Position numbers and translations under genes: made by a program
In this document: positions 16,155 through 28,514 of the stretch, in pieces
How the letters are laid out: every line of letters starts with the position of its first letter
Position numbering within the stretch: the first letter of the stretch is position 1
Notes under the pieces: generated by a model
What the model saw: only the letters and a program-made list of their open reading frames with translations
Database searches by the model: none
What the model was told of the DNA's origin: nothing
Source: a virus
DNA length: 28,845 nucleotides
Direction: 5' to 3' (one strand)
Virus record (IMG/VR): IMGVR_UViG_3300025097_002015
Span: 1 to 28,845 of that record

Positions 16155-16470
16155 TGGAGGAGTCGGCGAGGAACACTCAGTCGTTATCAAATTTTATGCG
16201 CCTCATTGTCAATATTGTCTTAATTTGGCCGATTACTATAAAGAAATTGCCAATTCATATAATGATGTGCTATTTTATGCTTTTAATATGGAGGATGACA
16301 ATGGCGAGTTGGAACAAAAATATGGATTTTATGGAATTCCAACGCTCTTTCATATAAAGACAGGAGGCAAGAAGACCAAGGTTACTCTTATGCCTGACCC
16401 TGACGATCCAAATGAACATACATGGTATCGCACAAATGATATCAAAGAATTTATTGACAAACACAAATAG
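16105..16470 (+). CDS. thioredoxin-like protein
   Basis: A 121-residue thioredoxin-fold protein. It has the core strand VVIKFYAP, the redox pair C-Q-Y-C, the long helix after it, and the cis-proline motif GFYGIPTLF. A disulfide reductase of this kind could recharge the C-terminal cysteine pair of the phage class II ribonucleotide reductase; the link is inferred. AGGA at 16096-16099 precedes ATG 16105. An internal ATG pair at 16141/16144 would avoid most of the 50-bp overlap with the zinc-ribbon gene but would leave a short N-terminus. The C-terminal half has an extra loop (PDPDDPNEHTW) not seen in typical Trx. Confidence 0.85.
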   Translation: MSIVARIDKKSLMMILDGGVGEEHSVVIKFYAPHCQYCLNLADYYKEIANSYNDVLFYAFNMEDDNGELEQKYGFYGIPTLFHIKTGGKKTKVTLMPDPDDPNEHTWYRTNDIKEFIDKHK

Positions 16471-16478
16471 GAGAAAAA

Positions 16479-16718
16479 ATGTCGTTAAAGAATCTTGAAG
16501 CCGCACTAATGCAACTAAGTGCAAAGGCAACGGAGCATTACGCTGCAATCGAGCTTATAATCAATAATCCAGTTGCAATTTCTGAGCACACCAATCATGT
16601 TGATGAAATTATTCGGCGCGCAAAGCATATGGCCGAATGCGAAGAGGCATATGCTTCGCTGCATAAGCACTTCATTCAGGCCGCACAAGAAGACACCGAT
16701 GCAGCAGCAGAGCAATAA
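16479..16718 (+). CDS. small helical protein, unknown
   Basis: A 79-residue protein with no family I recognise. It appears all-helical and mildly acidic (SLKNLEAALMQLSAKATEHY; then an alanine-rich C-terminus). TAGGAG lies six bases before the ATG, a good ribosome site, and the gene fits tightly between the thioredoxin and IMPDH-like genes, so it is probably real. It may be a small structural or adaptor protein. Confidence 0.6.
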   Translation: MSLKNLEAALMQLSAKATEHYAAIELIINNPVAISEHTNHVDEIIRRAKHMAECEEAYASLHKHFIQAAQEDTDAAAEQ

Positions 16719-16719
16719 A

Positions 16720-17745
16720 ATGCTTGAAGCGTTAACCTATGATGATGTATTGCTGCAGCCACAATACTCAGAGATTCGCTCACGCGGCGATATAGACACT
16801 AGCACTGACCTGGGCAAGCTTATCAATTTAGGCATGCCTATTATTTCGTCACCAATGGATACGATTACCGGTGGACGGATGGCAGCTGCCATGACGCGAC
16901 ACGGAGGCCTGGGTATTGTTCATCGTTATAATACGGCAGAAGAGCAGATGTTGGAAATTATCAAAGCATATGAAAACAGCAACAACAAAATTATCGTTGG
17001 CGCCGCTGTTGGCACATCGGGTGATTATTTAGACCGCGCGCGCAGCCTTATAAGCGCAGGTGTTAATTTAATTTGTGTTGATGTTGCCCACGGACACCAT
17101 GTTTTAATGAAAGAGGCGTTATATAATTTGAGAAAAATGGCACCTAATCTTCATATTATGGCCGGCAACGTAGCTACGTTGGAGGGCGTTAACGATCTCG
17201 CCGATTGGGGCGCAGACTCTATTCGTTGCAATATTGGGGGTGGCTCAATTTGCTCTACAAGAACACAAACTGGCCATGGCCTTCCGGGCCTTCAAACTAT
17301 TTTTGAATGTTCAAAGACTGACCGCGATGTGAAAATTATCGCCGATGGCGGAATCCGAAACTCTGGCGACATTGTAAAGGCGCTTGCCGCCGGCGCAGAT
17401 GCTGTGATGTGTGGATCTCTTTTCGCCGGCACAAGTCAAACTCCTGGCAAAGTTTTCGAGGGAACTAATGGCGCAAAGTATAAAGTTTATAGAGGAATGG
17501 CTTCGAAAGAAGCACAGATTGAATGGCGCGGCAAATACTCTTCTTTCGAAGGCATATCAAGCCGCGCACCATATCGTGGCGATGTTCGCTTTATTCTGGA
17601 AGATCTTGAGCGCGGGATCCGCAGCGGGCTTTCCTATTCCGGCGCGCATAACCTCATAGATCTACAACGAAAGGCAAAATTTGTGCGTCAGACAACTGCT
17701 GGTTTGGGCGAAAGCATGACTCATATTAACACGAGGAAATGGTAA
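16720..17745 (+). CDS. IMP dehydrogenase / GMP reductase family protein without CBS domains
   Basis: A TIM-barrel purine enzyme of 341 residues. N-terminus [10 protein letters not shown], substrate-loop C178 in G-G-G-S-I-C-S-T-R, phosphate site [21 protein letters not shown], and MCGSLFAGT are all present. Between HRYNTAEEQ and the GAAVGT strand there are only about 20 residues, so the CBS module of ordinary bacterial IMPDH is absent and the length is that of GMP reductase. The downstream [14 protein letters not shown] and EGI...PYRGDV resemble IMPDH, but the flap is short, so the direction (IMP to XMP, or GMP to IMP) cannot be settled by eye. Earlier in-frame starts exist (16573, 16699), but they read through the upstream gene; ATG 16720 comes one base after that gene's stop and places LTYDD normally. 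It adjusts guanine nucleotide pools. Confidence 0.85.
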
Positions 17746-18086
17746 TGTCGGAGAATTTCGATAACTATGGAAAGGATCGAAAAAGGTTGATATTTAATAT
17801 AGCCGATCACGATCATGCTAAGTTAATTGTTCGTTTACGTCACAATTCACTAACACAAGCTGAATTCTTTAGGGCAGTTATCGATGGGGTTAATACGGGC
17901 GATCACAACATCTGTGCGTTCATTGAAGATTATCTTGCGGCAAAACAAAAATTAAGTAAACAAAAAATTAAAAAATCTCGACAAATTCGCGAACAGGGCG
18001 AACAGTTGATTGAAGACTTTGCTCTAACTGATAATGAGGTAGGGGACATTTTTGACTTAATCGCCGACGATCACCCAGACCTATGA
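17745..18086 (+). CDS. small basic/acidic protein, possibly ribbon-helix-helix DNA-binding
   Basis: A 113-residue protein. Residues around AKLIVRLRHNSLTQAEFFRAVIDGV look like a ribbon-helix-helix unit (beta-strand, then two helices), followed by a lysine-rich helix (KQKIKKSR) and an acidic tail (DIFDLIADDHPDL). This is suggestive of a small DNA-binding regulator but not proof. ATG 17745 overlaps the previous TAA and has GAGG eight bases upstream; the ATG at 17739 has only a 2-base spacing and was rejected. It overlaps the next, sigma-like gene by ATGA. I recall similar small proteins in marine T4-like phages. Confidence 0.55.
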   Translation: MSENFDNYGKDRKRLIFNIADHDHAKLIVRLRHNSLTQAEFFRAVIDGVNTGDHNICAFIEDYLAAKQKLSKQKIKKSRQIREQGEQLIEDFALTDNEVGDIFDLIADDHPDL

Positions 18087-18331
18087 AAAAAGATGGCCTA
18101 TTTGCATGTGCGCGTAAATGCATGAAAGAGCGAAAATGCTGCAACACATTGGAATGCCGGCATTATATTGAATACCCGGCTGACTACAATTGCACTTTGG
18201 TGGCTGTTTATGAAAATGGCCCAATGACGCTAAGGGAAGTTGCAAAGAGATTAAGCATATCTTTTGCGAGAGTAAAGCAGATAGAACAAAAGGCACTTAA
18301 CAAAATGAAGAAGAACACACTCATATCTTAA
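18083..18331 (+). CDS. sigma70 region 4-like helix-turn-helix protein with Cys-rich N-terminus
   Basis: An 82-residue protein. The C-terminal half, GPMTLREVAKRLSISFARVKQIEQKAL, is a clear match to the region 4 helix-turn-helix of sigma factors (the part that binds the -35 box and the beta flap). The N-terminal half has a cluster of cysteines (C9, C13, C19, C20, C25, C37, with H28) suggesting a bound zinc. Regions 2 and 3 are absent, so it cannot act as a full sigma. It may dock on host RNA polymerase or sigma and shift promoter choice, as sigma-appropriation proteins do; this is inference. It is the last gene of an ATGA-linked set and is followed by a weak hairpin. Confidence 0.7.
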   Translation: MKKDGLFACARKCMKERKCCNTLECRHYIEYPADYNCTLVAVYENGPMTLREVAKRLSISFARVKQIEQKALNKMKKNTLIS

Positions 18332-18348
18332 AATATTTTGTGTTCTTT
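18311..18348 (+). terminator. possible weak terminator hairpin after the sigma-like gene
   Basis: AAGAACACA (18311-18319) pairs perfectly with TGTGTTCTT (18339-18347) around a 19-base A/T-rich loop that contains the gene's stop codon. T-rich but interrupted sequence follows. The large loop and low GC make it a weak terminator at best; it could also act as an RNA-processing hairpin. Confidence 0.3.
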
Positions 18349-18399
18349 ATTGATTTTCACTACTATTTAATGTTGAGTTTTACTTTAAGGAGATTTACT

Positions 18400-19083
18400 A
18401 TGGCTCGAAAAACACTTTTAACTGAGGCTCAGATTCGAAGCTTCATAAAGCTTGCTAACATCGGCCCTGTTGGCGACACCAAGTTGCAAGAATGGTACGA
18501 TGAGGGTCTTGAGGAACAGGAAGAAGAGGAAGAGCTAGAAATGGATGATGAAGAAGAGCCCGAGCGGGTGGGCCATGGCGGCGGCCTGCCGGACATGGAC
18601 GCAGAGCTTGGCGGCGACGAAATGGAAATGGATGCAGAGCTTGGCGACGACGAGATGGATATGGATGCAGAGCTTGGCGCCCCTGACGAACTAGATGTGG
18701 GCCCAGGTGGCGACAAAGAGTCCGAATTCATGGATCTTGTACAACAGTTGGCTGATATGGTTGGCGTTGAGGTAGACATGGAAGGTGGCGCCGAAGGCGA
18801 AGAAGAAATGGGAGCCGATCTTGAAGGAGGTGAGGAAGCAGAAGAAGAGCTACCCCCCATGCCCGGAGAAGAAGAAGCTGGAATGGAAGCTGGAATGGAA
18901 GCCGGCGAGGAAGAAGAGGAAGAGGAACTCCCCGGGATGCGCGACAGCATGTACGAAAACACTGACAAGGTTGTCAACGAAGTTGCTCGTCGCGTTGCCG
19001 GCCGGCTAGCCAGCGAGAACAAAAAGACCAAGATGGTTAATGACTTGGCCGAAAGAATATTTAACCGCCTTACAACAAAGTAA
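18400..19083 (+). CDS. highly acidic repeat protein, possibly prohead core/scaffold
   Basis: A 227-residue protein. The N-terminus (MARKTLLTEAQIRSFIKLAN) and the C-terminus (VNEVARRVAGRLASENKKTK) are ordinary helical segments; the middle 130 residues are dominated by Asp, Glu, Gly and Met, with a three-copy 11-residue repeat of the form M-D-A-E-L-G-x-D-E-M-x. Acidic low-complexity bodies with structured ends recall T4 prohead core proteins, and the LLTE-type N-terminus is one I associate with marine phage structural or internal proteins; both are inference. ATG 18400 has AAGGAG seven bases upstream; the in-frame ATG at 18340 would add an aromatic-rich leader and has no ribosome site. It is followed by a promoter/terminator, so it is a separate transcription unit. 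Confidence 0.6.
   Translation: MARKTLLTEAQIRSFIKLANIGPVGDTKLQEWYDEGLEEQEEEEELEMDDEEEPERVGHGGGLPDMDAELGGDEMEMDAELGDDEMDMDAELGAPDELDVGPGGDKESEFMDLVQQLADMVGVEVDMEGGAEGEEEMGADLEGGEEAEEELPPMPGEEEAGMEAGMEAGEEEEEEELPGMRDSMYENTDKVVNEVARRVAGRLASENKKTKMVNDLAERIFNRLTTK
18595..18693 (+). repeat. 33-bp coding tandem repeat, three copies
   Basis: Units begin with ATGGA(C/T)GCAGAGCTTGGC at 18595, 18628 and 18661, a strict 33-bp period. Units one and two are nearly identical; the third keeps the first 18 bases and then diverges. They encode the 11-residue acidic repeat in the middle of the protein. Recent duplication by slippage or unequal exchange is likely. Confidence 0.8.
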
Positions 19084-19091
19084 AGTAAAAC

Positions 19092-19120
19092 TTGACAAAT
19101 CAAACGCAAACCATTATGAT
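19092..19120 (+). promoter_or_regulatory. strong sigma70 promoter for the membrane protein/clpP operon, abutting a terminator
   Basis: TTGACA (19092-19097), a 17-bp spacer and TATGAT (19115-19120) give a near-consensus promoter. The -10 ends exactly where the terminator hairpin begins, so the start of transcription (near 19127) lies inside the hairpin's 5' arm. New transcripts would lack most of that arm and escape termination. Confidence 0.7.
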
Positions 19121-19152
19121 AACCATCAGAGATCTCTGATGGTTATTTTTTT
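19121..19152 (+). terminator. intrinsic (rho-independent) terminator
   Basis: A perfect inverted repeat with 10-base arms (AACCATCAGA and TCTGATGGTT) around GATC at 19131-19134 is followed directly by ATTTTTTT (19145-19152). It lies 37 bp after the stop of the acidic-protein gene and should end transcripts coming from it. Confidence 0.75.
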
Positions 19153-19161
19153 GAGGAAGTT

Positions 19162-19569
19162 ATGGGCATTGAACAATATGCAATATACCTGTTAATTTTT
19201 ACATTCGGCTATGTTACGAGCCGCACATTTTATTTTTTTAGTAGTGTGCGACACTCAATTAGAACGCTAAAAATAATGCATGTGGTTGCATTGTCTATGT
19301 TGCTCAATTGTATTCAGGAATACGCGTACGTTGGGGCTAAAAAATTAGCTACATTAGAAAAATGTGGCGTGCTTCCTAGTGATAGAATATATAAGAATGC
19401 CGAGACCGCCCATGAAGAGATTGTTGATTCTTTTAAGAGGCGTAGTATCGCCTCGCTAATAGCGCTACACCCACAAGTTTTTAGGCCGATTTTACAGTTT
19501 GAGGATTGGAACTCGGCCATGGAATATCTGGAAAAAAACAAAAAAATTGTTAAATTGTTTTTAGCATGA
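19162..19569 (+). CDS. small membrane-anchored protein, unknown
   Basis: A 135-residue protein with an N-terminal hydrophobic helix (IYLLIFTFGYVTSRTFYFF) and a second moderately hydrophobic segment (IMHVVALSMLLNCI), then a soluble, charged helical domain ending in KIVKLFLA. No family is recognised. GAGG precedes the ATG at the usual distance, and the gene is read from the strong promoter just upstream. Its stop overlaps the clpP start (ATGA), so the two are translationally coupled; the membrane protein could recruit or regulate the protease, but that is only suggested by context. Confidence 0.6.
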   Translation: MGIEQYAIYLLIFTFGYVTSRTFYFFSSVRHSIRTLKIMHVVALSMLLNCIQEYAYVGAKKLATLEKCGVLPSDRIYKNAETAHEEIVDSFKRRSIASLIALHPQVFRPILQFEDWNSAMEYLEKNKKIVKLFLA

Positions 19570-20246
19570 AGAGAACTATGTTTAATAAAATTAAGAAGAA
19601 GATTTTAGACGCTGTGACTAAAAAATTATCAGCGCCGCCGAAGGACCCAGAGGATAAGGTAGAGAAGATTGTTTTAGTTGATCCATCTGCACTCGTCGCG
19701 CCAGAGGAGGAACCCGATATGAGAATCATCGGGCTCTTTACCGATGTTCAAGAAGAAAAAGTTGCTGAAATTGTACAAGCGCTTCTTTATCTAAATGAGG
19801 TAAACAAGAACGAAGAGAAACAGGAAGATCGTCAGCCAATTGAATTTTACATTTCAACTTATGGAGGCTCAGCCGATGACATGTTCGCTCTATACGACGT
19901 CATGAATCTTGTGAGAGAAGAAACTGAAATTCACACCATTGGCGTGGGGAAGGTTATGTCTGCCGGCGTTTTATTGTTGGCCGGTGGCACGCCCGGTAAA
20001 CGAAAAATTGGCAAAAATTGCCGCGTAATGATCCACAATGTGAGCGCCGGCGCTGCCGGCTCACTGCCAAATTTGGCAATAGAGCTTGAAGCAATTCAGC
20101 AGTTGCAAGAGGATTATGTTAATGCCTTGGTGTCGTGCACAAAGCTAACTCAGAAAAAACTTACAAAAATGCTAAATGAAAAAGTTAATATTTATCTTGA
20201 TGCCGAAGAAGCAGTGCGGCTTGGAATTGCTGATATTATTATATAA
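19566..20246 (+). CDS. clpP: ClpP-like serine protease homologue
   Basis: A 226-residue ClpP-fold protein. Residues 55-226 match ClpP: IGLFTDV, FYISTYGGSADDMFALYDVM, the nucleophile segment G-K-V-M-S-A-G with S132, PGKRKIGKNCRVMIHN with H157 (25 residues after the serine, as in E. coli S97/H122), and AEEAVRLGIAD. Counting back from the conserved Gly, the catalytic Asp (E. coli D171) aligns with N208 in VNIYLDAEEA; D212 is nearby but in the wrong place. The N-terminal 55 residues are an extra basic then acidic extension, not a ClpP propeptide I recognise. In phages such enzymes may act as prohead or regulatory proteases. No ClpX/ClpA is seen in the window, so it would need a host partner or act alone. 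Confidence 0.85.
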   Translation: MKRTMFNKIKKKILDAVTKKLSAPPKDPEDKVEKIVLVDPSALVAPEEEPDMRIIGLFTDVQEEKVAEIVQALLYLNEVNKNEEKQEDRQPIEFYISTYGGSADDMFALYDVMNLVREETEIHTIGVGKVMSAGVLLLAGGTPGKRKIGKNCRVMIHNVSAGAAGSLPNLAIELEAIQQLQEDYVNALVSCTKLTQKKLTKMLNEKVNIYLDAEEAVRLGIADIII

Positions 20247-20251
20247 ATAGA

Positions 20252-20280
20252 TTGACAATCTTTTGATAATGAGTTATAAT
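20252..20280 (+). promoter_or_regulatory. consensus sigma70 promoter for groEL
   Basis: Perfect TTGACA (20252-20257), a 17-bp spacer and perfect TATAAT (20275-20280) form the strongest promoter in the window. Transcription would start near 20287, leaving a leader of under 20 bases with a GAGGTG ribosome site. No CIRCE-like inverted repeat of the kind that controls host groEL is visible. Confidence 0.8.
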
Positions 20281-20303
20281 TATAATGTATGCATGAGGTG
20301 TAA

Positions 20304-21878
20304 ATGAGTAGAGCATATGATAGCAGGAATTCTCTGCAGCAAAAAATTATGAATGGGGCAAACACTCTTGTTGACAATGTTGCTTCCACACTCGGTCCCC
20401 GCGGCCGCAATGTTTTGCTGCAAGAAGCAGGCAAGGGCCCTTTTATTACCAAGGACGGTGTGACAGTTGCGCATTTTGTGCAGCTAGAGGATCCATTTGA
20501 AAATGCGTCTGCGCAGATTATTAAGCAAGCTGCAATTGAAACGAATAATGAAGCCGGCGACGGCACTACAACTGCAACAGTCTTGGCGCGCGCCATATTA
20601 CGAGAATCACAAAGATATATTGCTTCTGGCGCGTCCCCGATTGAATTACAAAGAGGTATTGATGCAACAGTTAAAGAAATCACAAAAAATCTTACAAATA
20701 TGGCAATCCCGGTTAAAAATGCTGAAGACATCACTCATATTGCCGCTATCTCAGCCAATAACGATGCTGCTATTGGAGGGCTTATTGCTCTTGCTGTTGA
20801 TCGCGTGGGCGAAGACGGATCTATTACAATAGAGGAGTCTCGTTCTTTAGAGACGTCCATAGATGTTACCGAAGGATTTAAAATTGAATCCGGATACTGT
20901 GCTGCAGCCTTTATTACAGATGATCGGCGCTCAGTCATGAACTATGAGGAACCACTTTTCCTGATAACAGACCATAAGATATCACAGGTAGAACCAATAT
21001 TGCCGATTCTAGAAATGATTGCACGGGAAGGCCGCCCCCTTATTATTGTCGCAGAGGATATCGAAGGACAAGCATTGGCAGCCTTGATTATGAATGCAAT
21101 ACGAGGTACCTTAAAGATTGCTGCCGTTAAGGCGCCTTATTATGGCGAAGAAAGAAGAAATCTATTAAGCGATCTCGCATTGTCAGTTGGAGCTACGTTG
21201 ATAGCGAGAGAAGAGGGCAAAAAATTGCAAGAGATAGAGCTTTCAGATCTTGGAACGGCCAAGCTTGTTGAAAGCAACAAATACTCGACCGTAATCGTGG
21301 GCGGCAAATGTGACTTTAAGGCCATTGATGAGCGCATAGAGGCTTTAAAAAATCAAATCAAACAAACCTCTTCGATTCAAGATTGCGAACAATTACAGGC
21401 GCGCGTTGTGCGCTTGTCTTCGGGTGTCGCGGTCATCTCAGTAGGAGGTTCTACCGAAGTTGAAATGACCGAACGCAAGCACCGCATTGAGGATGCCCTG
21501 GAGGCAGTAAGATCCGCCCAGGAAGAGGGTATCGTTGGCGGAGGTGGTGTTGCGCTCATTGAGGCAACAAAAAAGCTTTTAATCGAAACTAACCACTCAG
21601 AGCAAGCTCTCGGCGCGGTTATCGTAAAAGAAGCATGTAAAGAACCATTTCGCCAAATGGCACTCAATGCAGGAGAACCTCCGGATGTGTTGATTAAGAC
21701 AGTAATGGAGGCAGATGAGGGCATGGGCTGGGATTTTAGAAACAATGAGTTGGTCAATCTACTTGATAACGGTATTATCGATCCAGTTAAAGTTACCAAG
21801 GCTGCTCTTCAGAACGCTGCTAGCTGCGCTGGGACCCTAATTACTACTAATTTTGGCATTATACAGACAGGAGAATAA
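20304..21878 (+). CDS. groEL: GroEL-like chaperonin (Cpn60)
   Basis: A full-length 524-residue group I chaperonin. The equatorial ATP site is intact: TLGPRGRNVLL, KDGVTVA and G-D-G-T-T-T-A-T. The apical domain (residues around 190-370) contains LITDHKISQVEPILPILEMI and PLIIVAEDIEGQALA, with the aliphatic substrate/GroES-binding pattern; the C-terminal equatorial half has VGGSTEVEMTERKHRIEDALEA, GIVGGGGVAL and DPVKVTKAALQNAAS. The C-terminus stops at IIQTGE without the flexible GGM tail of bacterial GroEL. It would fold phage structural proteins or enzymes, with the phage GroES at 7.7 kb as a likely cap. It has its own consensus promoter. It is more divergent than a recent host copy would be. 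Confidence 0.95.
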   Translation: MSRAYDSRNSLQQKIMNGANTLVDNVASTLGPRGRNVLLQEAGKGPFITKDGVTVAHFVQLEDPFENASAQIIKQAAIETNNEAGDGTTTATVLARAILRESQRYIASGASPIELQRGIDATVKEITKNLTNMAIPVKNAEDITHIAAISANNDAAIGGLIALAVDRVGEDGSITIEESRSLETSIDVTEGFKIESGYCAAAFITDDRRSVMNYEEPLFLITDHKISQVEPILPILEMIAREGRPLIIVAEDIEGQALAALIMNAIRGTLKIAAVKAPYYGEERRNLLSDLALSVGATLIAREEGKKLQEIELSDLGTAKLVESNKYSTVIVGGKCDFKAIDERIEALKNQIKQTSSIQDCEQLQARVVRLSSGVAVISVGGSTEVEMTERKHRIEDALEAVRSAQEEGIVGGGGVALIEATKKLLIETNHSEQALGAVIVKEACKEPFRQMALNAGEPPDVLIKTVMEADEGMGWDFRNNELVNLLDNGIIDPVKVTKAALQNAASCAGTLITTNFGIIQTGE

Positions 21879-21879
21879 A

Positions 21880-22098
21880 ATGCAAGAAGGAGATTTGATT
21901 CACATACCCCAAGATGTTCTGTTATTCGACAAGAATAATATTTTTATTGATAAAACCAAGAAGCCGATAGTGGGGGTTTTTCTAAAAGAAACGCCAGTGG
22001 GTTCACCATGGCAGGCCGGCACATACACCGTTTATGCCAAAGGCCGCGAAGCGGTGGTGGCGAGAAGATGTGTGTACCCCATGGAGGAAGAATGTTAG
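21880..22098 (+). CDS. small beta-rich protein, unknown
   Basis: A 72-residue protein with a strand-rich pattern (GDLIHIPQDVLLF, KPIVGVFLKE, GTYTVYAKGREAVVARRCVYPM), suggesting a small SH3- or OB-like barrel. I recognise no family. AGGAGA at 21869-21874, inside the end of groEL, serves ATG 21880, one base after the groEL stop. The frame is open 9 codons earlier but those lie within groEL. It overlaps the next start by 7 bp, so it is part of the groEL-downstream operon. Confidence 0.55.
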   Translation: MQEGDLIHIPQDVLLFDKNNIFIDKTKKPIVGVFLKETPVGSPWQAGTYTVYAKGREAVVARRCVYPMEEEC

Positions 22099-22385
22099 TT
22101 AAATTAACCGAAGTGTGCAACACTGGCGCAGTTACTGCAAATGCTAAATATTCCTTGCGCGAAGTCTTTGTTAACCCGGAACATGTAGTGATGGTTCGTG
22201 AAGAGCGGCGTTTGCGAGAGTTAAATGAACAAGGGCGTCTGCCAAGCGATCTGGACCCGGACCACAGATTTTCGAAAATCATAATTGATCGAGGCAACAC
22301 CGGCACTGAAATAACTGTGGTTGGCGCGCCGGAGATTATCGAGTTGGCGCTTCAAAATAGCTCCAAACAACTTTTAAGGGGATGA
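22092..22385 (+). CDS. small protein, faintly FlbD-like, unknown function
   Basis: A 97-residue protein. The frame M-L-V-K-L-T-E-V, then VFVNPEHVVMV, then a TGTEITVVGAPEIIE end resembles the strand order of FlbD-type flagellar proteins (I-x-L-T...NP..I..I...VxE), but with a charged insert (REERRLRELNEQ) between; this is only a hint. GAGGAA precedes ATG 22092. The in-frame ATG at 22008 lies wholly inside the previous gene and was rejected. The stop is one base before the next ATG. Confidence 0.5.
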   Translation: MLVKLTEVCNTGAVTANAKYSLREVFVNPEHVVMVREERRLRELNEQGRLPSDLDPDHRFSKIIIDRGNTGTEITVVGAPEIIELALQNSSKQLLRG

Positions 22386-22386
22386 T

Positions 22387-22764
22387 ATGGGACAAAGGAT
22401 AACTATTCAGTATTCCGTCGAGGAGACGGAACTTAAGTATGAGACGTATAGGCTTCTTACTAATAGTCTAGCCCGGCTAACTTCGATTAATGCCGGCACG
22501 CCCGATGTTCAGAGTGTTTTAACAATCGGCACACTAAAAGAGGTAAACGCTTTACGCGAAGAGATGGCCCGAATCGATATCATGTTGGAAGATGTATCTG
22601 CTATAATTGATGGGTACGTTAGGTACGAGCACGGTGTTTTTTTAGGTGAGAGCACCGAGCTAGATGATTCTGTTCCCGCTGCAGCACCAGACATAGAAGG
22701 TCTTCAGCAGAAGCTGCAAGGCTTGAAACACGCCCTTCAAGAACCCAATGAAGTCTCCGATTAA
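22387..22764 (+). CDS. helical coiled-coil-like protein, unknown
   Basis: A 125-residue helical protein. It has an N-terminal strand (GQRITIQYSV), a long amphipathic segment (EETELKYETYRLLTNSLARL, then LKEVNALREEMARIDIMLED) and a second C-terminal helix rich in Q, L and K. It may be a small oligomeric accessory protein; there is no recognisable domain. AAGGGGA lies before the ATG. Its last 17 bp overlap the next gene. Confidence 0.55.
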   Translation: MGQRITIQYSVEETELKYETYRLLTNSLARLTSINAGTPDVQSVLTIGTLKEVNALREEMARIDIMLEDVSAIIDGYVRYEHGVFLGESTELDDSVPAAAPDIEGLQQKLQGLKHALQEPNEVSD

Positions 22765-23518
22765 AGATTTAAGATACGCCTCAAGGGCGTTAAGTGTGCT
22801 TAAGCGCATAATCCCTGCGGATAGTTCCGTAGAGTCGTTTTTGTTGTTTGCCGGCGATCTGGAGATCAACTTAGCAGAAGCCGGCCGCCAAGTCACCGCT
22901 CATACCAATAGATATGTAATTTATGATTTTTGGGTATCTTTGTTTGAAAGCCCATGGGTGCTTTCTGAAATGGCCCAATTTTTTTACCCGTTTGAAAGTC
23001 AAGAAGTTTTTAACGTATTTCAAAAAGATTATAGTAAAAAAAAGGATCCCTATATGCGCGCAGCCCTATTTTTTTTGTTAAATCGGTGTTCATCAAATGG
23101 AATGATATCTTCTGGAGATTTAGATCAAAAAAATTATACCCCTATGGCCCTGACTCACCTTGAAAGATTTAAACAAATTAATTTTGACGTTGTTTGCGAT
23201 CAGTCCGAGAACTTTTTAGCGAACGTTTCACAAATAAAAGATACTGATTTCATCTTTTTTCCAGTAGGAAAGTTTAGTTTCAATTTGTTAGAAGAAGGGA
23301 TTACCCGCGGCCAAGAAGAAACAACGATTTATCACAAAGAACTAAAAGAGACTGTAGATGCTCTTAAAACGCCCACAATCTTGAATTATGTATATCATCC
23401 GGGCGTCGTGCAACTTTACAGCGACTATGAGATGATTATGTTAGATAAATATGGAAAAGATACTTCTGACAAAACTAAAGCAAAGGAGCTTATAATTGCA
23501 AATTTCGGAATTAGTTAA
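22748..23518 (+). CDS. degenerate D12-class (Dam-like) DNA adenine methyltransferase homologue
   Basis: A 256-residue protein whose whole layout follows D12-class adenine methylases but whose catalytic motifs are altered. The motif I region reads FLLFAGDLEINLAEAG (29-45) and the NDxN-like step reads A-H-T-N-R-Y-V-I-Y-D-F-W (51-62). The central helix has RAALFFLLNRCSSNGMI (104-120), like the R/A-x-x-F-x-x-x-N-R-xxxNG block of D12 enzymes. Where DPPY should be there is F-P-V-G-K-F (171-176), followed by the D12-like tail TTIYHKELKETVDAL and HPGVVQLYSDYEMIML. It is therefore probably not an active methylase; it may bind SAM or DNA in another role. The ATG lies in the end of the previous gene with only a weak ribosome site. 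Confidence 0.6.
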   Translation: MKSPIKDLRYASRALSVLKRIIPADSSVESFLLFAGDLEINLAEAGRQVTAHTNRYVIYDFWVSLFESPWVLSEMAQFFYPFESQEVFNVFQKDYSKKKDPYMRAALFFLLNRCSSNGMISSGDLDQKNYTPMALTHLERFKQINFDVVCDQSENFLANVSQIKDTDFIFFPVGKFSFNLLEEGITRGQEETTIYHKELKETVDALKTPTILNYVYHPGVVQLYSDYEMIMLDKYGKDTSDKTKAKELIIANFGIS

Positions 23519-23846
23519 GGCATGCGCCCTCTTCACAGTGGCGCAGGCATGTGTGTGGTTTCAGTGTTATTCTCACTATGTGTGGGAATGGTGGCAAAAT
23601 AAGCCAATTCATGCGGCATTAGTATACGGGATTCCTGCTAGTATTTGTTTTTGGTATGGTACGCGCCTCGCAGTCGATGCCACCAGCGAAGCGTGGGCGG
23701 CGCGCCTATTAGGCTTTGGAATATCATATCTAACTTTTCCATTACTCACTTGGTGGCTTTTAAATGAAAGTATGTTCACGACAAAGACAATGATTTGTGT
23801 AGCTTTGTCGGTTATGATAGTAATGGTACAAATATTTTGGAGATAA
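23496..23846 (+). CDS. four-helix integral membrane protein, unknown
   Basis: A 116-residue, very hydrophobic protein with about four membrane-spanning helices (VKACALFTVAQACVWF; HAALVYGIPASICFWYG; LLGFGISYLTFPLLTWWLL; TMICVALSVMIVMVQIF), the size of a small multidrug-type or DMT-like unit; similar small membrane proteins occur in marine T4-like phages. It starts at TTG with a perfect AAGGAG at 23483-23488 seven bases upstream, inside the previous gene (23-bp overlap); no ATG serves. It might be a holin candidate or affect host membrane transport; nothing decides this. Confidence 0.6.
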   Translation: MQISELVKACALFTVAQACVWFQCYSHYVWEWWQNKPIHAALVYGIPASICFWYGTRLAVDATSEAWAARLLGFGISYLTFPLLTWWLLNESMFTTKTMICVALSVMIVMVQIFWR

Positions 23847-23847
23847 A

Positions 23848-24177
23848 ATGACAATAGTAGAAAAGCCTTGGGGCTTTGAATTAATTTGGGCACAAACGGA
23901 TAATTATGTCGGCAAGTTATTGCACATTGACGCACAACAAAGGCTTTCTCTTCAATATCATGAAATTAAAGAGGAAACTGTTTTTGTCACGCAAGGAATT
24001 CTTTTAAATTATGATGCCGGCGGGAATGTGCAAGCAATTCCCGCCGGCCAATCGTTACATGTTCAGCCTAATCAAGTTCATCGATTTGGCGCCGGCAAGA
24101 AATACGTTGAGCTTATTGAAGTGAGCACCCCATATCTTGATGATGTTGTTAGATTAGAAGATGACTATAAGAGATAA
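23848..24177 (+). CDS. cupin-domain protein, mannose-6-phosphate isomerase type II C-terminal-like
   Basis: A 109-residue single-domain cupin. It has the pattern of the sugar-phosphate isomerase cupins: E-K-P-W-G-F-E-L-I-W at the start, metal-site segment LQYHEIKEETVFVTQG with H and E in place, the HVQPNQVHRFGAG second motif, and the typical tail VELIEVSTPYLDDVVRLEDDY. It lacks the nucleotidyltransferase half of full ManC proteins. It may interconvert or bind a sugar phosphate for glycan modification of the host surface or virion; the nucleotidyltransferase-like protein at 10.3 kb could be in the same pathway, which is a guess. Confidence 0.75.
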   Translation: MTIVEKPWGFELIWAQTDNYVGKLLHIDAQQRLSLQYHEIKEETVFVTQGILLNYDAGGNVQAIPAGQSLHVQPNQVHRFGAGKKYVELIEVSTPYLDDVVRLEDDYKR

Positions 24178-24207
24178 TAAACTATTTATTACGTTGAGGA
24201 ATTAAAT

Positions 24208-27200
24208 ATGAGTGATTTTGCAACGGATAAGTGGTTTAAACATGTCCGAGAAGAATTGATAGTAGAGGGCTTGAGAGACATCGGTCTCCCCGAATATGTC
24301 GTCGATTTTATCGAAGAGGCAATGCCGTCTTCCCCGGAGAAGGCGAAGGTGTACACAGGCAATGGCTGGAAGAAAGCCTTCACGACGGATAACGTGCAGA
24401 ACCTTCAGTTTACTGCCGTTAATCATCTGATCGATCAGTACGGCGACTATGTGCAGAAGCAACCCAGCAGCGACGACCCCATTGCCCCCCTGCAAGCCCG
24501 AACCTCGACACCGTATGGGACTGCCGATGACGGCAGTTTCAAGCACGTAGAGTACGACGACGAGATGATAAAGCGCTCTGAGCAAGTTAAGTTCGTTATT
24601 CAAAACATCAAGAATGTGCTCGCCAAGCCGATGGGCACGTGGCCCAAGGCATTTAAGAAAGCCGTGAAGGCTTTGAGCAAAGCGGGAATTCCCAGCGAGA
24701 AAGTTGAATCCACCCAAGAATACTTTAAAGTACTTCTTCAGCAAGAGTTTCAAAATTGGTGGTACAGATACGATTTGCTGTTCGCATGGTTAAACTCTGA
24801 GCCCACCAACTATGAACTGATTAAAGGCGAAAAAAGCATGGTGGACGCCTACCGTGTTGCTCAAGATGACTTAAACAACAAAGAAGATCCCGACTTTATC
24901 ATACACACCTTTGAGGATGGCTCTTACTGGTACAATCTTGATGTGTCTAACTGCCCTGTTGAAGGCGAGCGCATGGGGCACTGCGGTGGCGACAATCGCG
25001 GCGTTCTTGTTTCTCTGCGCAAGAAGAAAGGCAAGCGCAAGGCATCCTCGTCTTATATCACGATGACTTGGGATGACGAGACCCTTTATCAGATCAAGGG
25101 GCGCTCTAACGATGCTCCCCCGGAGGAGACCTGGGATCACATCGATTGGTTCATTAAGAACATGAACATCAACTCAGTCCAAGAAAGCGGCGAGCACTCC
25201 AACGACTGGGATGGTTTCCGAGAGATGAATGACTATCTATCCTCACGAAACCGCGACGTTAGTTTTGCAGGCGCAGTTGATATTGAAGCCATTGACGAGA
25301 TGCTTAGTGAAATAGCAAACAACTACGATGGTGAACAAACGTCGATATCAGCAGAGTCCCAGGGACCAGAGGACCACGGCGGCGACGGCGCGTATGTATA
25401 CATGAGCGGCTATGCCAGCATGGAGATTGAACTTCGCTGGAAAGGCTTTAAAGAAGAAGAGGGTTTTTATATCCCGACACTGGGACCGAGGACCGCCACT
25501 TCGGATGCGACAACTGACGACAGCCTCAGCCCCATCCCGATTAACTCATGGGGCACCGATGCACGAGCGTTTGAGGATGAGTCGGGATTTGATACAATCG
25601 GCTGGGATCTTCCGGGCGACGACCCAGAAGTAGAGTGGTCGATCCAGATGAAAGAAAGCTCTTTCCCGCCAGGTTACGAGGGAGATATGGAGGCGTCCGG
25701 CCCCATGCTGGCAGTCCTTAGTGTAGAGTGGCGCCTCAGCCACCAAGAAGGCGTTGAAGATGCCGACGAGGCCGAGCGCCACTTTGAAGACTTTAGCGAT
25801 AACATGCAGCAGTTTGACAATGAATACGAGGAGAAACATGCCGAGGTGCGGGGCAATCTGGCACAGCACGGCTACATCGCCAAGACAACCTACGACCGTG
25901 ACCGCGAAGAAATGGCTGCATACGACATGGATCACTGGAAAGTGTGGAGCGAGAAATCAGGACTAGAGTTTTGGTTTAGACCACACAGACGGTCAGATAC
26001 TCTTATTAATAGCGGCGGAGATGCGGCACGCATCCCGATGGAAATTATGATGTGGGGACGCGATCCAGCCCGCGACCATCACATAGACGCGTTGTGGGTG
26101 AAGATCTTTGGTACATCTATCCTGCGTGGGAAGATGCAGTCACCTGACCTTAACCGCAACATGGCGAGAAACTTGGAGAAACTTTATGCAGAACAAGAAG
26201 CCTCTGATCCCGACCAAGAGCAGCTTCCCTTTAGTCAAGAGTACGATGCGCCTCCCCCACGCGCTGTGTTGGCGAAAGACTCGCGCTTCATCATTGAACC
26301 AGCAACGAGATTTGAGCGCTCCGGTGACGTTGGCGAAGGCTCATACCCCAACATGTCTATCAACTGGCGTTATACTATTGGTGTAGATCACACAGCATCG
26401 TCCGAGGAAGTACAGACAGTCAAAGATATTGTGAAGTATTTTAACGAGAACTCCGATATGGTTGAACTTGCCGCCATGCAGACGATCCGTGATGCGATGG
26501 AGGGGACGGCAGCGTTGGCAGATGCCACCAAAGCAGATGTTATGTCGGGCAAGTGGCCCAACATTGCCATTCGGCGCATTGATGATAAGTATGGTGCCGC
26601 GGCGTATGCCGGGGATGTCCATGCCGAGGCAATCATTCTGATTACCAAGTGGATAAAAGACAACTTCGATCAGATGAGTGAGCCAGAAAAATATGTAGCG
26701 TGGTTTAAATATCTGAAGCCGATCAAAGATGCTCACTTCAACATGGCTAGATCTGGAAACATTGAAATGGACGACGATGCCAACATTGGCATGCCCAAGA
26801 ACTGGGTAATAGAGGTGCAAGATCAGTTGAAGAAGATGAAAGCCTTCAGTGGAACCGTGAACAAGTATGGTGGAGTGCAGCCTGGCGAGACACTGAAAGG
26901 AACGATAGGAGAGCCCCAGCCCGTAGGAGAGTCGATGGAACAACAGATAGCAAGAATAGACAACCTCTTGCAGGAGAAGGATCCCAACTACGATCTTAGA
27001 ATTTACAGCATTAAAGTTGATCTTTCGATCCAGAAGCAGGTTGGTGGCGAAATCCAAGAGACGCAGACAGAGATCCGCGGAATTGAAGGCGTTACCACGG
27101 TGCGCACCCTAGGTGACACTAGTGATGTGGGCACTGCCGTTGTCGCGACATACGAAATTAAGTTTGAGCTTATTGGGGCCATTAGTCGCGTTAAATTTCG

Positions 27201-27735
27201 CGATGCAATCCTTATTCCCGGCTTAATGAAGATCAAGGGATTGAAAATACTGCGGATTTCTCCGATGCACAGAACAAATGTCCGCGGCACCATTAGAACC
27301 GTACGTGAATCTTTAATTAAAGAAGAGACCTTTGCTCCTTTTGGTGGTAAGGTAGGTGCCGCAGCCGGCACACGCATGCGGGGTCGTAGAATGGTTACTC
27401 CGCGAAAAATGCTTGATGATATTGCTACCGACTGGCGAGAAGGCGGCGTCATGTCCTATGATGCGGCCATGGACACCACAGATATGCGTTATCATGTCAT
27501 GTTGCCGGTGGAAGAATTGTTGCCTTATATATCACGTGAATTTCGTGCACCTAAAGACGCGTTTGATGGGATGTATCAAAATTTTATTAGCAATGGAGCG
27601 CAAGCCCCCGTATATGTTGCTATAGGAAAAAATGGCAGAGTAAAAGTAACAGGTGGAGAAGATATCATATGGTTTGCTAAGCGTAGCGGGTTAGAAGAGT
27701 TGCCCGTGTTTTTAAGTTACCAAAGTCAGGTATAA
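24208..27735 (+). CDS. 1175-residue multidomain protein with PcfJ-like MGHC core and ParB-fold-like C-terminal module
   Basis: Three parts are visible. Residues 1-230 are helical, with the conserved opening HVREELIVEGLRDIGLP. Residues 230-315 contain HTFEDGSYWYNLD, E-R-M-G-H-C-G-G with C259, VLVSLRKK and LYQIKGRSNDAPPEE, the pattern of the MGHC..SLRD..QIKG domain of phage and PcfJ-type proteins (by memory). Residues 330-1030 are a long, acidic, strand-rich region without a name. After VRESLIKEE (1032) a separate module of about 140 residues ends APVYVAIGKNGRVKVTGGED and WFAKRSGLEELPVFLSYQ, like a ParB-type fold with its GxHR changed to GGED. The middle is clearly GC-richer than its neighbours, and the end returns to the local composition. 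Its role may be structural or internal; unknown. Confidence 0.65.
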   Translation: MSDFATDKWFKHVREELIVEGLRDIGLPEYVVDFIEEAMPSSPEKAKVYTGNGWKKAFTTDNVQNLQFTAVNHLIDQYGDYVQKQPSSDDPIAPLQARTSTPYGTADDGSFKHVEYDDEMIKRSEQVKFVIQNIKNVLAKPMGTWPKAFKKAVKALSKAGIPSEKVESTQEYFKVLLQQEFQNWWYRYDLLFAWLNSEPTNYELIKGEKSMVDAYRVAQDDLNNKEDPDFIIHTFEDGSYWYNLDVSNCPVEGERMGHCGGDNRGVLVSLRKKKGKRKASSSYITMTWDDETLYQIKGRSNDAPPEETWDHIDWFIKNMNINSVQESGEHSNDWDGFREMNDYLSSRNRDVSFAGAVDIEAIDEMLSEIANNYDGEQTSISAESQGPEDHGGDGAYVYMSGYASMEIELRWKGFKEEEGFYIPTLGPRTATSDATTDDSLSPIPINSWGTDARAFEDESGFDTIGWDLPGDDPEVEWSIQMKESSFPPGYEGDMEASGPMLAVLSVEWRLSHQEGVEDADEAERHFEDFSDNMQQFDNEYEEKHAEVRGNLAQHGYIAKTTYDRDREEMAAYDMDHWKVWSEKSGLEFWFRPHRRSDTLINSGGDAARIPMEIMMWGRDPARDHHIDALWVKIFGTSILRGKMQSPDLNRNMARNLEKLYAEQEASDPDQEQLPFSQEYDAPPPRAVLAKDSRFIIEPATRFERSGDVGEGSYPNMSINWRYTIGVDHTASSEEVQTVKDIVKYFNENSDMVELAAMQTIRDAMEGTAALADATKADVMSGKWPNIAIRRIDDKYGAAAYAGDVHAEAIILITKWIKDNFDQMSEPEKYVAWFKYLKPIKDAHFNMARSGNIEMDDDANIGMPKNWVIEVQDQLKKMKAFSGTVNKYGGVQPGETLKGTIGEPQPVGESMEQQIARIDNLLQEKDPNYDLRIYSIKVDLSIQKQVGGEIQETQTEIRGIEGVTTVRTLGDTSDVGTAVVATYEIKFELIGAISRVKFRDAILIPGLMKIKGLKILRISPMHRTNVRGTIRTVRESLIKEETFAPFGGKVGAAAGTRMRGRRMVTPRKMLDDIATDWREGGVMSYDAAMDTTDMRYHVMLPVEELLPYISREFRAPKDAFDGMYQNFISNGAQAPVYVAIGKNGRVKVTGGEDIIWFAKRSGLEELPVFLSYQSQV

Positions 27736-27749
27736 CATACTTACTATGT

Positions 27750-28514
27750 ATGATAAGGTTCTTGAAATTAGTAAAGAAGCTTTTTTGGGGGTCCATTTCG
27801 GTAGCCCTGATTGGTTGTCTTATATTTGTAAGCGTTTATAGTAACAAATATTTAGCCCCACCGCGTCTACAATACGACAACAACATTAGCAATTTATATT
27901 CCAAGAATTATAAAAAGTCAGTTGCAAAATCGCGCTACAGTGCCGTACTTATAAACTCACCAGATCTTTTATTTCGCGTTTCATCGTTATCCGGCACATA
28001 TTTTATAGCAAATGGCGAGCCATATGTTATAACTGCCGCGCATGGAATTTCAGGGCCGTGTTTTTTAATGACAATATCTCACGAACAAAATTACCACGAT
28101 TGTGAAGAATATACAGTGATTGACAGATTAAATGATTATGCGATCATAAAACTATCAGAAAAAATACCAAATAGAGATCCGGTAAGAATTCCAGAGGACT
28201 TGCCCCGAGGCAGCCAATGGGCCGCGTCGTATTCAATATTAAATAAAATAATATACACAGGATATCCAAATTCGATTGGTCCTTTAACATTAAAGGGAGA
28301 TGTGGTAGGATATACTGGAGAAGATTATTTATATGTGTTTTCTCATGCATATATGGGCTCCTCTGGATCCGGCGTTTTTTCAACTAAAGGAAAATATATT
28401 GGCATAGTAACCGCCATTGATATTGGACAAACTGAGTATGGAGTTGATATATTAGAAAATGTTGTGCTTGTGACACCAGCTTTTAAAGTGGACTGGTCCG
28501 CCGTATTAGACTAA
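27750..28514 (+). CDS. membrane-anchored trypsin-like (S1) serine protease
   Basis: A 254-residue protein. One N-terminal membrane helix (residues 12-30, LFWGSISVALIGCLIFVSV) after a basic start (RFLKLVKK) gives an inside-out orientation with the catalytic domain exported. The chymotrypsin-fold triad is visible: H98 in V-I-T-A-A-H-G, D129 in NDYAIIKL, and S205 in M-G-S-S-G-S-G. Relatives in bacteria (HtrA-like, without PDZ) degrade or process envelope proteins. The start has no clear ribosome site and lies 14 bp after the giant gene; the neighbouring ATG at 27746 is out of frame. Together with the matrixin at 8.9 kb it is a second exported protease in the same phage. Confidence 0.82.
   Translation: MIRFLKLVKKLFWGSISVALIGCLIFVSVYSNKYLAPPRLQYDNNISNLYSKNYKKSVAKSRYSAVLINSPDLLFRVSSLSGTYFIANGEPYVITAAHGISGPCFLMTISHEQNYHDCEEYTVIDRLNDYAIIKLSEKIPNRDPVRIPEDLPRGSQWAASYSILNKIIYTGYPNSIGPLTLKGDVVGYTGEDYLYVFSHAYMGSSGSGVFSTKGKYIGIVTAIDIGQTEYGVDILENVVLVTPAFKVDWSAVLD

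Follow-up and report, generated by a model that had tools for sequence, protein, structure and literature searches.

The gene at 24208-27735 on the plus strand of the window, the 28,845-base IMG/VR virus record analysed here, is best read as encoding a large, late-expressed protein in a T4-like marine bacteriophage. The protein appears to have two constant parts, an N-terminal tag and a C-terminal module made of a ferredoxin-like domain, a linker, and a ParB-fold domain, with an exchangeable body between them. The preferred reading, to which we assign a probability of roughly 0.55, is that the product is packaged into the phage head, trimmed by a protease, and carries its body as exchangeable cargo. 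Comparison among relatives further indicates that phages of this group recombine at the locus, with bodies replaced while the ends stay. The open reading frame is intact, encodes 1175 amino acids, and has an ATG start preceded 7 nt upstream by a GAGGA ribosome-binding site. Features of the locus are collected in Table 1.

Table 1. Features of the gene and its surroundings in the window.
Feature	Residues	Position	Strand	Details
Promoter-like motif AACTATTTAT		24180..24189	+	28 nt before start codon
N-terminal tag	1-20	24208..24267	+	ends I-V-E before G21; T4 gp21-type L/I-x-E motif
PcfJ-like domain	225-330	24880..25197	+	MGHCG and QIKGR; Pfam, structure, and profile matches
Rest of body	331-915	25198..26952	+	GC-rich, acidic; replaced or absent in relatives
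Zone where near-identity to contig L002 fails		26883..26996	+	mismatches 26883, 26922, 26925, 26946; dense from 26963
Ferredoxin-like domain	926-1020	26983..27267	+	AlphaFold2 model, PDB matches
Disordered linker	1021-1065	27268..27402	+	pLDDT ~33
I-K-E within VRESLIKEE of the linker	1037-1039	27316-27324	+	L/I-x-E motif
ParB/sulfiredoxin-fold domain	1066-1175	27403..27732	+	Foldseek matches
Trypsin-like protease		27750..28514	+	PF13365, E=4.9e-7; conserved beside the gene

The window protein has no match in Pfam or PHROG, no PDB match at E<=0.001, and no match when solved structures are searched by sequence. Its domains are described from an AlphaFold2 model (mean pLDDT 79, pTM 0.40) and from its relatives. 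The region containing MGHC (residues 256-259) and QIKG (residues 295-298) is a weak PcfJ-like assignment that draws on three sources. The PcfJ family PF14284 is matched by 9 of 22 relatives at E<=1 (best 0.0031), with none of the 22 above the Pfam cut-off and no match for the window protein itself; structure searches return annotated phage PcfJ-like proteins (A0A6J5KJN7, E=9.9e-5; A0A6J5KMI9, E=1.2e-3); and the domain profile finds a match in Salicola phage SCTP-2 (E=1.4e-12).

At the other end of the protein, residues 930-1017 are modelled as strand-helix-strand-strand-helix-strand, and the PDB matches to this ferredoxin-like domain are SSo6206, MTH889-type proteins, and ribosomal protein S6 (probability ~1). 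Residues 1096-1172 are modelled as ParB/sulfiredoxin-like, and Foldseek matches this domain to ParB, PadC, Noc, KorB, and sulfiredoxin with probability ~1.00 and weak E-values of 0.08-0.5 for the ParB-type matches with the 1175-aa query. Structure matches also relate it to phage 'ParB/Sulfiredoxin' proteins. By sequence, one of 27 members matches ParB_N (E=0.017), and the Pfam family cut-off is not reached. The usual ParB motif is GERR. This nucleotide-binding box is missing from the alignment, where nearly all members have G(N/G)ED and the window protein has GNED, making nucleotide use by the ParB-fold domain doubtful.

A scan of IMG/VR identifies nine full-length homologues with 42-89% identity, and a scan with the PcfJ-like domain yields 80 loci. 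All complete proteins from the latter share one layout of N-terminal tag, PcfJ-like domain, middle, ferredoxin-like domain, linker, and ParB-like domain; in the shorter members, the middle profiles give weak matches or none. A gp21-type prohead protease (Peptidase_S77, PF03420) is present in 13 of 14 relatives' records, the exception being a 24-kb fragment; the Gp23 capsid protein is present in 12 of 12. Since the long relatives (92-203 kb) carry both genes, the group can be considered T4-like. Gp23 in these relatives starts with MSSIIERLTEG or nearly so. Its nearest match is in an uncultured jumbo phage (53% identity), and among isolates it is closest to Microcystis phage Mel-JY01 (48%) and Flavobacterium phage immuto (47%). 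PcfJ-type and ParB-type copies are missing from the three cultured phages nearest by Gp23, namely Flavobacterium immuto, Microcystis Mel-JY01, and Rhodothermus RM378. A tblastn search over 50,697 phage records gave weak ParB-like matches, chance matches, or none, apart from Salicola SCTP-2, and a literature search of limited extent found no paper on such a protein.

The C-terminal module also occurs apart from its usual N-terminal partner. A ParB-like scan recovers 80 loci with 79 open reading frames carrying the ParB-like part, and among 71 distinct proteins that combine ferredoxin-like and ParB-like parts, 50 have a PcfJ body and 21 do not (in three of the 21, a contig end truncates the gene and the body is not visible). 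The forms lacking a PcfJ body include proteins of 1293-1676 aa with another N-terminal half (S-R-H-P-x-D-V-L-R-M-S-D...S-C-H), as well as two near-bodiless proteins, L161 (259 aa) and L185 (270 aa), that consist of tag plus module. In a tandem form of 1494 aa (L089:5548-10032), the tag-like start and the PcfJ-like domain each occur twice, with the second copy following LITEG. The initial annotation had proposed a portable C-terminal unit of 140 residues beginning at VRESLIKEE (residues 1032-1040, 27301-27327). Portability is borne out by these other N-termini, whereas the proposed extent is too small: the unit usually begins near residue 926 (26.98 kb) and includes the ferredoxin-like domain.

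Pfam and PHROG scans of the other bodies give no useful match. A structure model of the alternative body reaches pLDDT 75, and the BFVD entry A0A516LC34 matches models of both the PcfJ-type and the alternative bodies; a single family uniting PcfJ-type and 'SCH' bodies was nevertheless rejected as not significant (hhalign p=0.068). At L149:1187-5342, an alternative-body gene is apparently split into three consecutive open reading frames, through decay or sequencing error.

Nearly all module genes occupy the same slot within the fetched flanks: GroEL and a set of small genes precede it, and w23496/cupin borders it on one side and the trypsin-like gene on the other, downstream, side. Exchange therefore happens in place. 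The module is present as a single copy per record, at this locus in every long genome, and the idea that it labels multiple proteins within a genome was rejected on that ground.

When relatives are compared pairwise, body identity is a poor guide to tail identity (r ~0.47); within the body, the correlations are 0.73-0.83. The clearest case involves L058 and L064, whose flanking DNA is ~79% identical on both sides of the gene. Their proteins share 78% amino acid identity over residues 1-47 and 88-100% over the tail from residue 941, but the bodies are ~26% identical, with residues 330-893 mostly at 15-36%. The tail DNA of this pair is merely 77-86% identical, which makes assembly error untenable in that case. 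Tree topology agrees: in AU tests, an L058+L064 clade is rejected on body data (p=2e-35), and an L064+L071 clade is rejected on tail data (p=5e-4), the bodies of L064 and L071 being sisters. The proposal that domain recombination kept resident ends on an exchanged body thus stands for the relatives, with a larger module and a fixed locus; for the window itself it depends on one comparison that could reflect a chimera.

That comparison is with contig L002. The two contigs differ by one mismatch from 16208 to 26882 of the window (99.9% identity over 10.7 kb), after which identity drops through a zone of ~80 nt to ~46%, around the start of the module; the genes downstream of the break are syntenic but diverged. 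This junction is the sole direct evidence of a switch in the window itself. An AU test on the window and L002 tails does not reject their clade (p=0.55), so this pair rests on the identity jump and not on topology. Neither junction is seen in a third IMG/VR contig, leaving two explanations, natural recombination or a chimera created when either contig was assembled from the metagenome. A chimera in this pair would fit the position of the break in a conserved stretch, but an artefact sits less well with a divergence that climbs over ~80 nt and with similar exchanges among other relatives, where the DNA is diverged; it is a serious alternative, though the less probable one. Elsewhere in the window, a 28-nt palindrome at 19119-19146, possibly a terminator, matches L002 on both strands.

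Base composition changes along the gene. GC content is 0.50-0.55 across 24.3-26.7 kb of the window and is again 0.37-0.45 from 27.25 kb. At fourfold sites, GC is 0.66 for residues 1-224, 0.60 for 225-330, 0.53 for 331-640, 0.57 for 641-925, 0.56 for 926-1020, and 0.44 for 1021-1175; the body as a whole (residues 1-915) stands at 0.58 against a mean of 0.403 (sd 0.041) for 18 other window genes. The shift noticed in the initial annotation is therefore real, and the local norm is regained at about residue 1020 (27.27 kb), near the VRESLIKEE stretch at which the border had been placed. Its exact position is loose because the last segment has just 73 fourfold sites.

The same annotation took the GC-rich middle as a sign of foreign origin, and a recent import of the body would indeed account for a fourfold GC more than 4 sd above the other window genes. 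Full-length homologues with the same layout exist in about 50 relatives, however, and their composition is likewise non-uniform, the body being GC-richer than the neighbouring genes in 46 of 52 (Wilcoxon p=6e-8). A GC-rich body is therefore a standing property of the gene, the shift alone is no proof of import, and recent import is improbable as its cause. Repeated exchange or selection may be the source, and the GC-rich body cannot date an import in the window. A separate compositional change is seen at the left end of the window, where GC is 0.62 within positions 1-1000 compared with ~0.42 elsewhere; the switch falls at ~750-1000, within BNR-like repeat proteins (open reading frames 40-747 and 525-1898).

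Both ends of the protein carry candidate sites for a prohead protease. In T4, gp21 cleaves after L/I-X-E, and both ends of Alt are trimmed by it (PMC9026906). The N-terminal tag has the consensus M-D-I-S-T-x-x-W-F-x-Y-L-R-E-E-V-L-T-E followed by G, and [LI]xE[GA] is found there in 52 of 52 relatives, with x varying. The linker between the ferredoxin-like and ParB-like domains is poorly conserved in sequence, yet 64 of 73 linkers contain [LI]xE, against 17.9 expected by shuffling and 23.2 for stretches of the same length elsewhere in the same proteins. When linkers are grouped at 50% identity, the motif occurs in 18 of 19 clusters (4.5 expected), while the control spacings [LI]E, [LI]xxE, and Ex[LI] remain at chance level. 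Nine of the 73 linkers lack [LI]xE; in PcfJ-type linkers, [LIVM]xE is present in 52 of 52. Conservation of L/I-x-E at both ends suggests protease trimming and lends indirect support to a role in processing or packaging.

A genome-wide class of proteins with a W...LxE[GA] N-terminal tag was considered and rejected, with 1-2 proteins per genome, little above chance. The window also encodes, at 18340-19083, a very acidic 247-aa protein with RKTLLTEAQIRSFIKLANIG near its start, whose LTE followed by A suggests another prohead-protease substrate.

The region upstream of the gene contains a conserved promoter-like motif, [AT]CTATTTAT. Of 59 distinct 60-nt stretches upstream of family members, 50 carry it, compared with 0.13 expected by shuffling, and it mostly lies 24-33 nt before the start codon. 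Among 24 window genes tested, only this gene has it. In two long relatives, 12 of 34 occurrences lie 15-45 nt before an open reading frame start (<1 expected by arithmetic), and the CTATTTAT motif also precedes their genes for the tail sheath (PHROG E=1e-64), the tail tube (E=1e-26), and PhoH. [AT]CTATTTAT is thus a putative late promoter of the phage group. The T4-type late promoter TATAAATA is at chance level upstream of the gene, [AT]CTATTTAT being conserved instead. Candidate late promoters with CTATTTAT can be listed at the Table 1 position in the window and in L222, L225, L227, and L219.

A late-type promoter motif, a single copy in every long genome, and near-bodiless forms, whose existence implies that the ends alone seem useful, would also suit an ordinary structural protein of the virion, expressed late and located for instance in the head-internal core or neck, with a fast-diverging middle under selection and neither injection nor linker trimming. 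Fast divergence alone, however, is unable to yield different, tandem, and near-bodiless forms between conserved ends, or bodies ~26% identical in genomes ~79% alike, and L/I-x-E is conserved in linkers that are otherwise unconserved; such a structural role is unlikely.

The gene adjoins GroEL and ClpP genes and lies away from the capsid block. This neighbourhood, together with the PcfJ- and ParB-type folds, would be compatible with a non-virion enzyme that works inside the cell, on DNA or in anti-defence, with the L/I-x-E motifs coincidental. The promoter-like motif shared with tail genes, the enrichment of L/I-x-E sites, and GNED in place of the ParB GERR all point away from an enzyme of this kind, which we regard as quite unlikely. 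The neighbouring trypsin-like protease looks membrane-anchored and could also process the window protein.

Under the preferred reading of a packaged and trimmed protein, the two ends would carry it into the prohead core, and a gp21-type protease would cut after L/I-x-E in the N-terminal tag and in the linker. Like T4 Alt and the internal proteins, the trimmed body would then remain in the head and pass into the host together with the DNA. Several points count against packaged cargo: L/I-x-E is short and frequent, the linker motif could instead be a docking peptide, nine of the linkers lack it, the gene's neighbours are GroEL and ClpP and not capsid genes, and no similarity to Alt or a known internal protein was detected. 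A more tentative extension is that the tag and tail form a fixed-end delivery chassis able to load any body, which the protease frees to act in the host, with cassettes exchanged in an arms race. If the preferred reading is true, the group carries a natural packaging chassis of two constant ends and replaceable cargo, and the variable bodies at one locus point to a series of candidates for injected or anti-defence proteins. The targeting principle known from T4 would then hold for very large proteins too, and the site choice of the prohead protease in large cargo would become testable.

Among known systems, the T4 internal proteins have a short N-terminal propeptide ending in L/I-x-E, and diverse mature parts stand behind this conserved targeting end (PMC3012670, PMC9026906). 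The window protein resembles IPI, IPII, and IPIII in its N-terminal L/I-x-E end, here a motif match only, and in the presence of gp21 and Gp23 in its relatives. It differs in size (~130 kDa, compared with ~8-20 kDa in T4); the T4 proteins lack a C-terminal ferredoxin/ParB module, no sequence similarity was detected, and packaging is predicted here. T4 Alt is likewise large, and both of its ends are gp21 propeptides (PMC9026906), whereas two-ended trimming is predicted for the window protein, which has other domains and no match to an ADP-ribosyltransferase family. The likeness to Alt and the internal proteins is therefore best read as one of way of working, without detectable kinship.

PcfJ-like proteins (PF14284) share a C/H-centred motif and, after it, an SLR strand and QxKG, with distant profile and structure matches; the match is below Pfam cut-offs, and their other domains are absent. 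The ParB/sulfiredoxin likeness lies in the predicted fold of the last 110 residues, with GNED replacing GERR and a weak sequence match. The hypothetical protein gp31 of Salicola phage SCTP-2 (735 aa) has the PcfJ-like domain found by the profile and is probably the 735-aa BFVD structure match (E=1e-6); it differs in that a ParB profile finds nothing in the gene.
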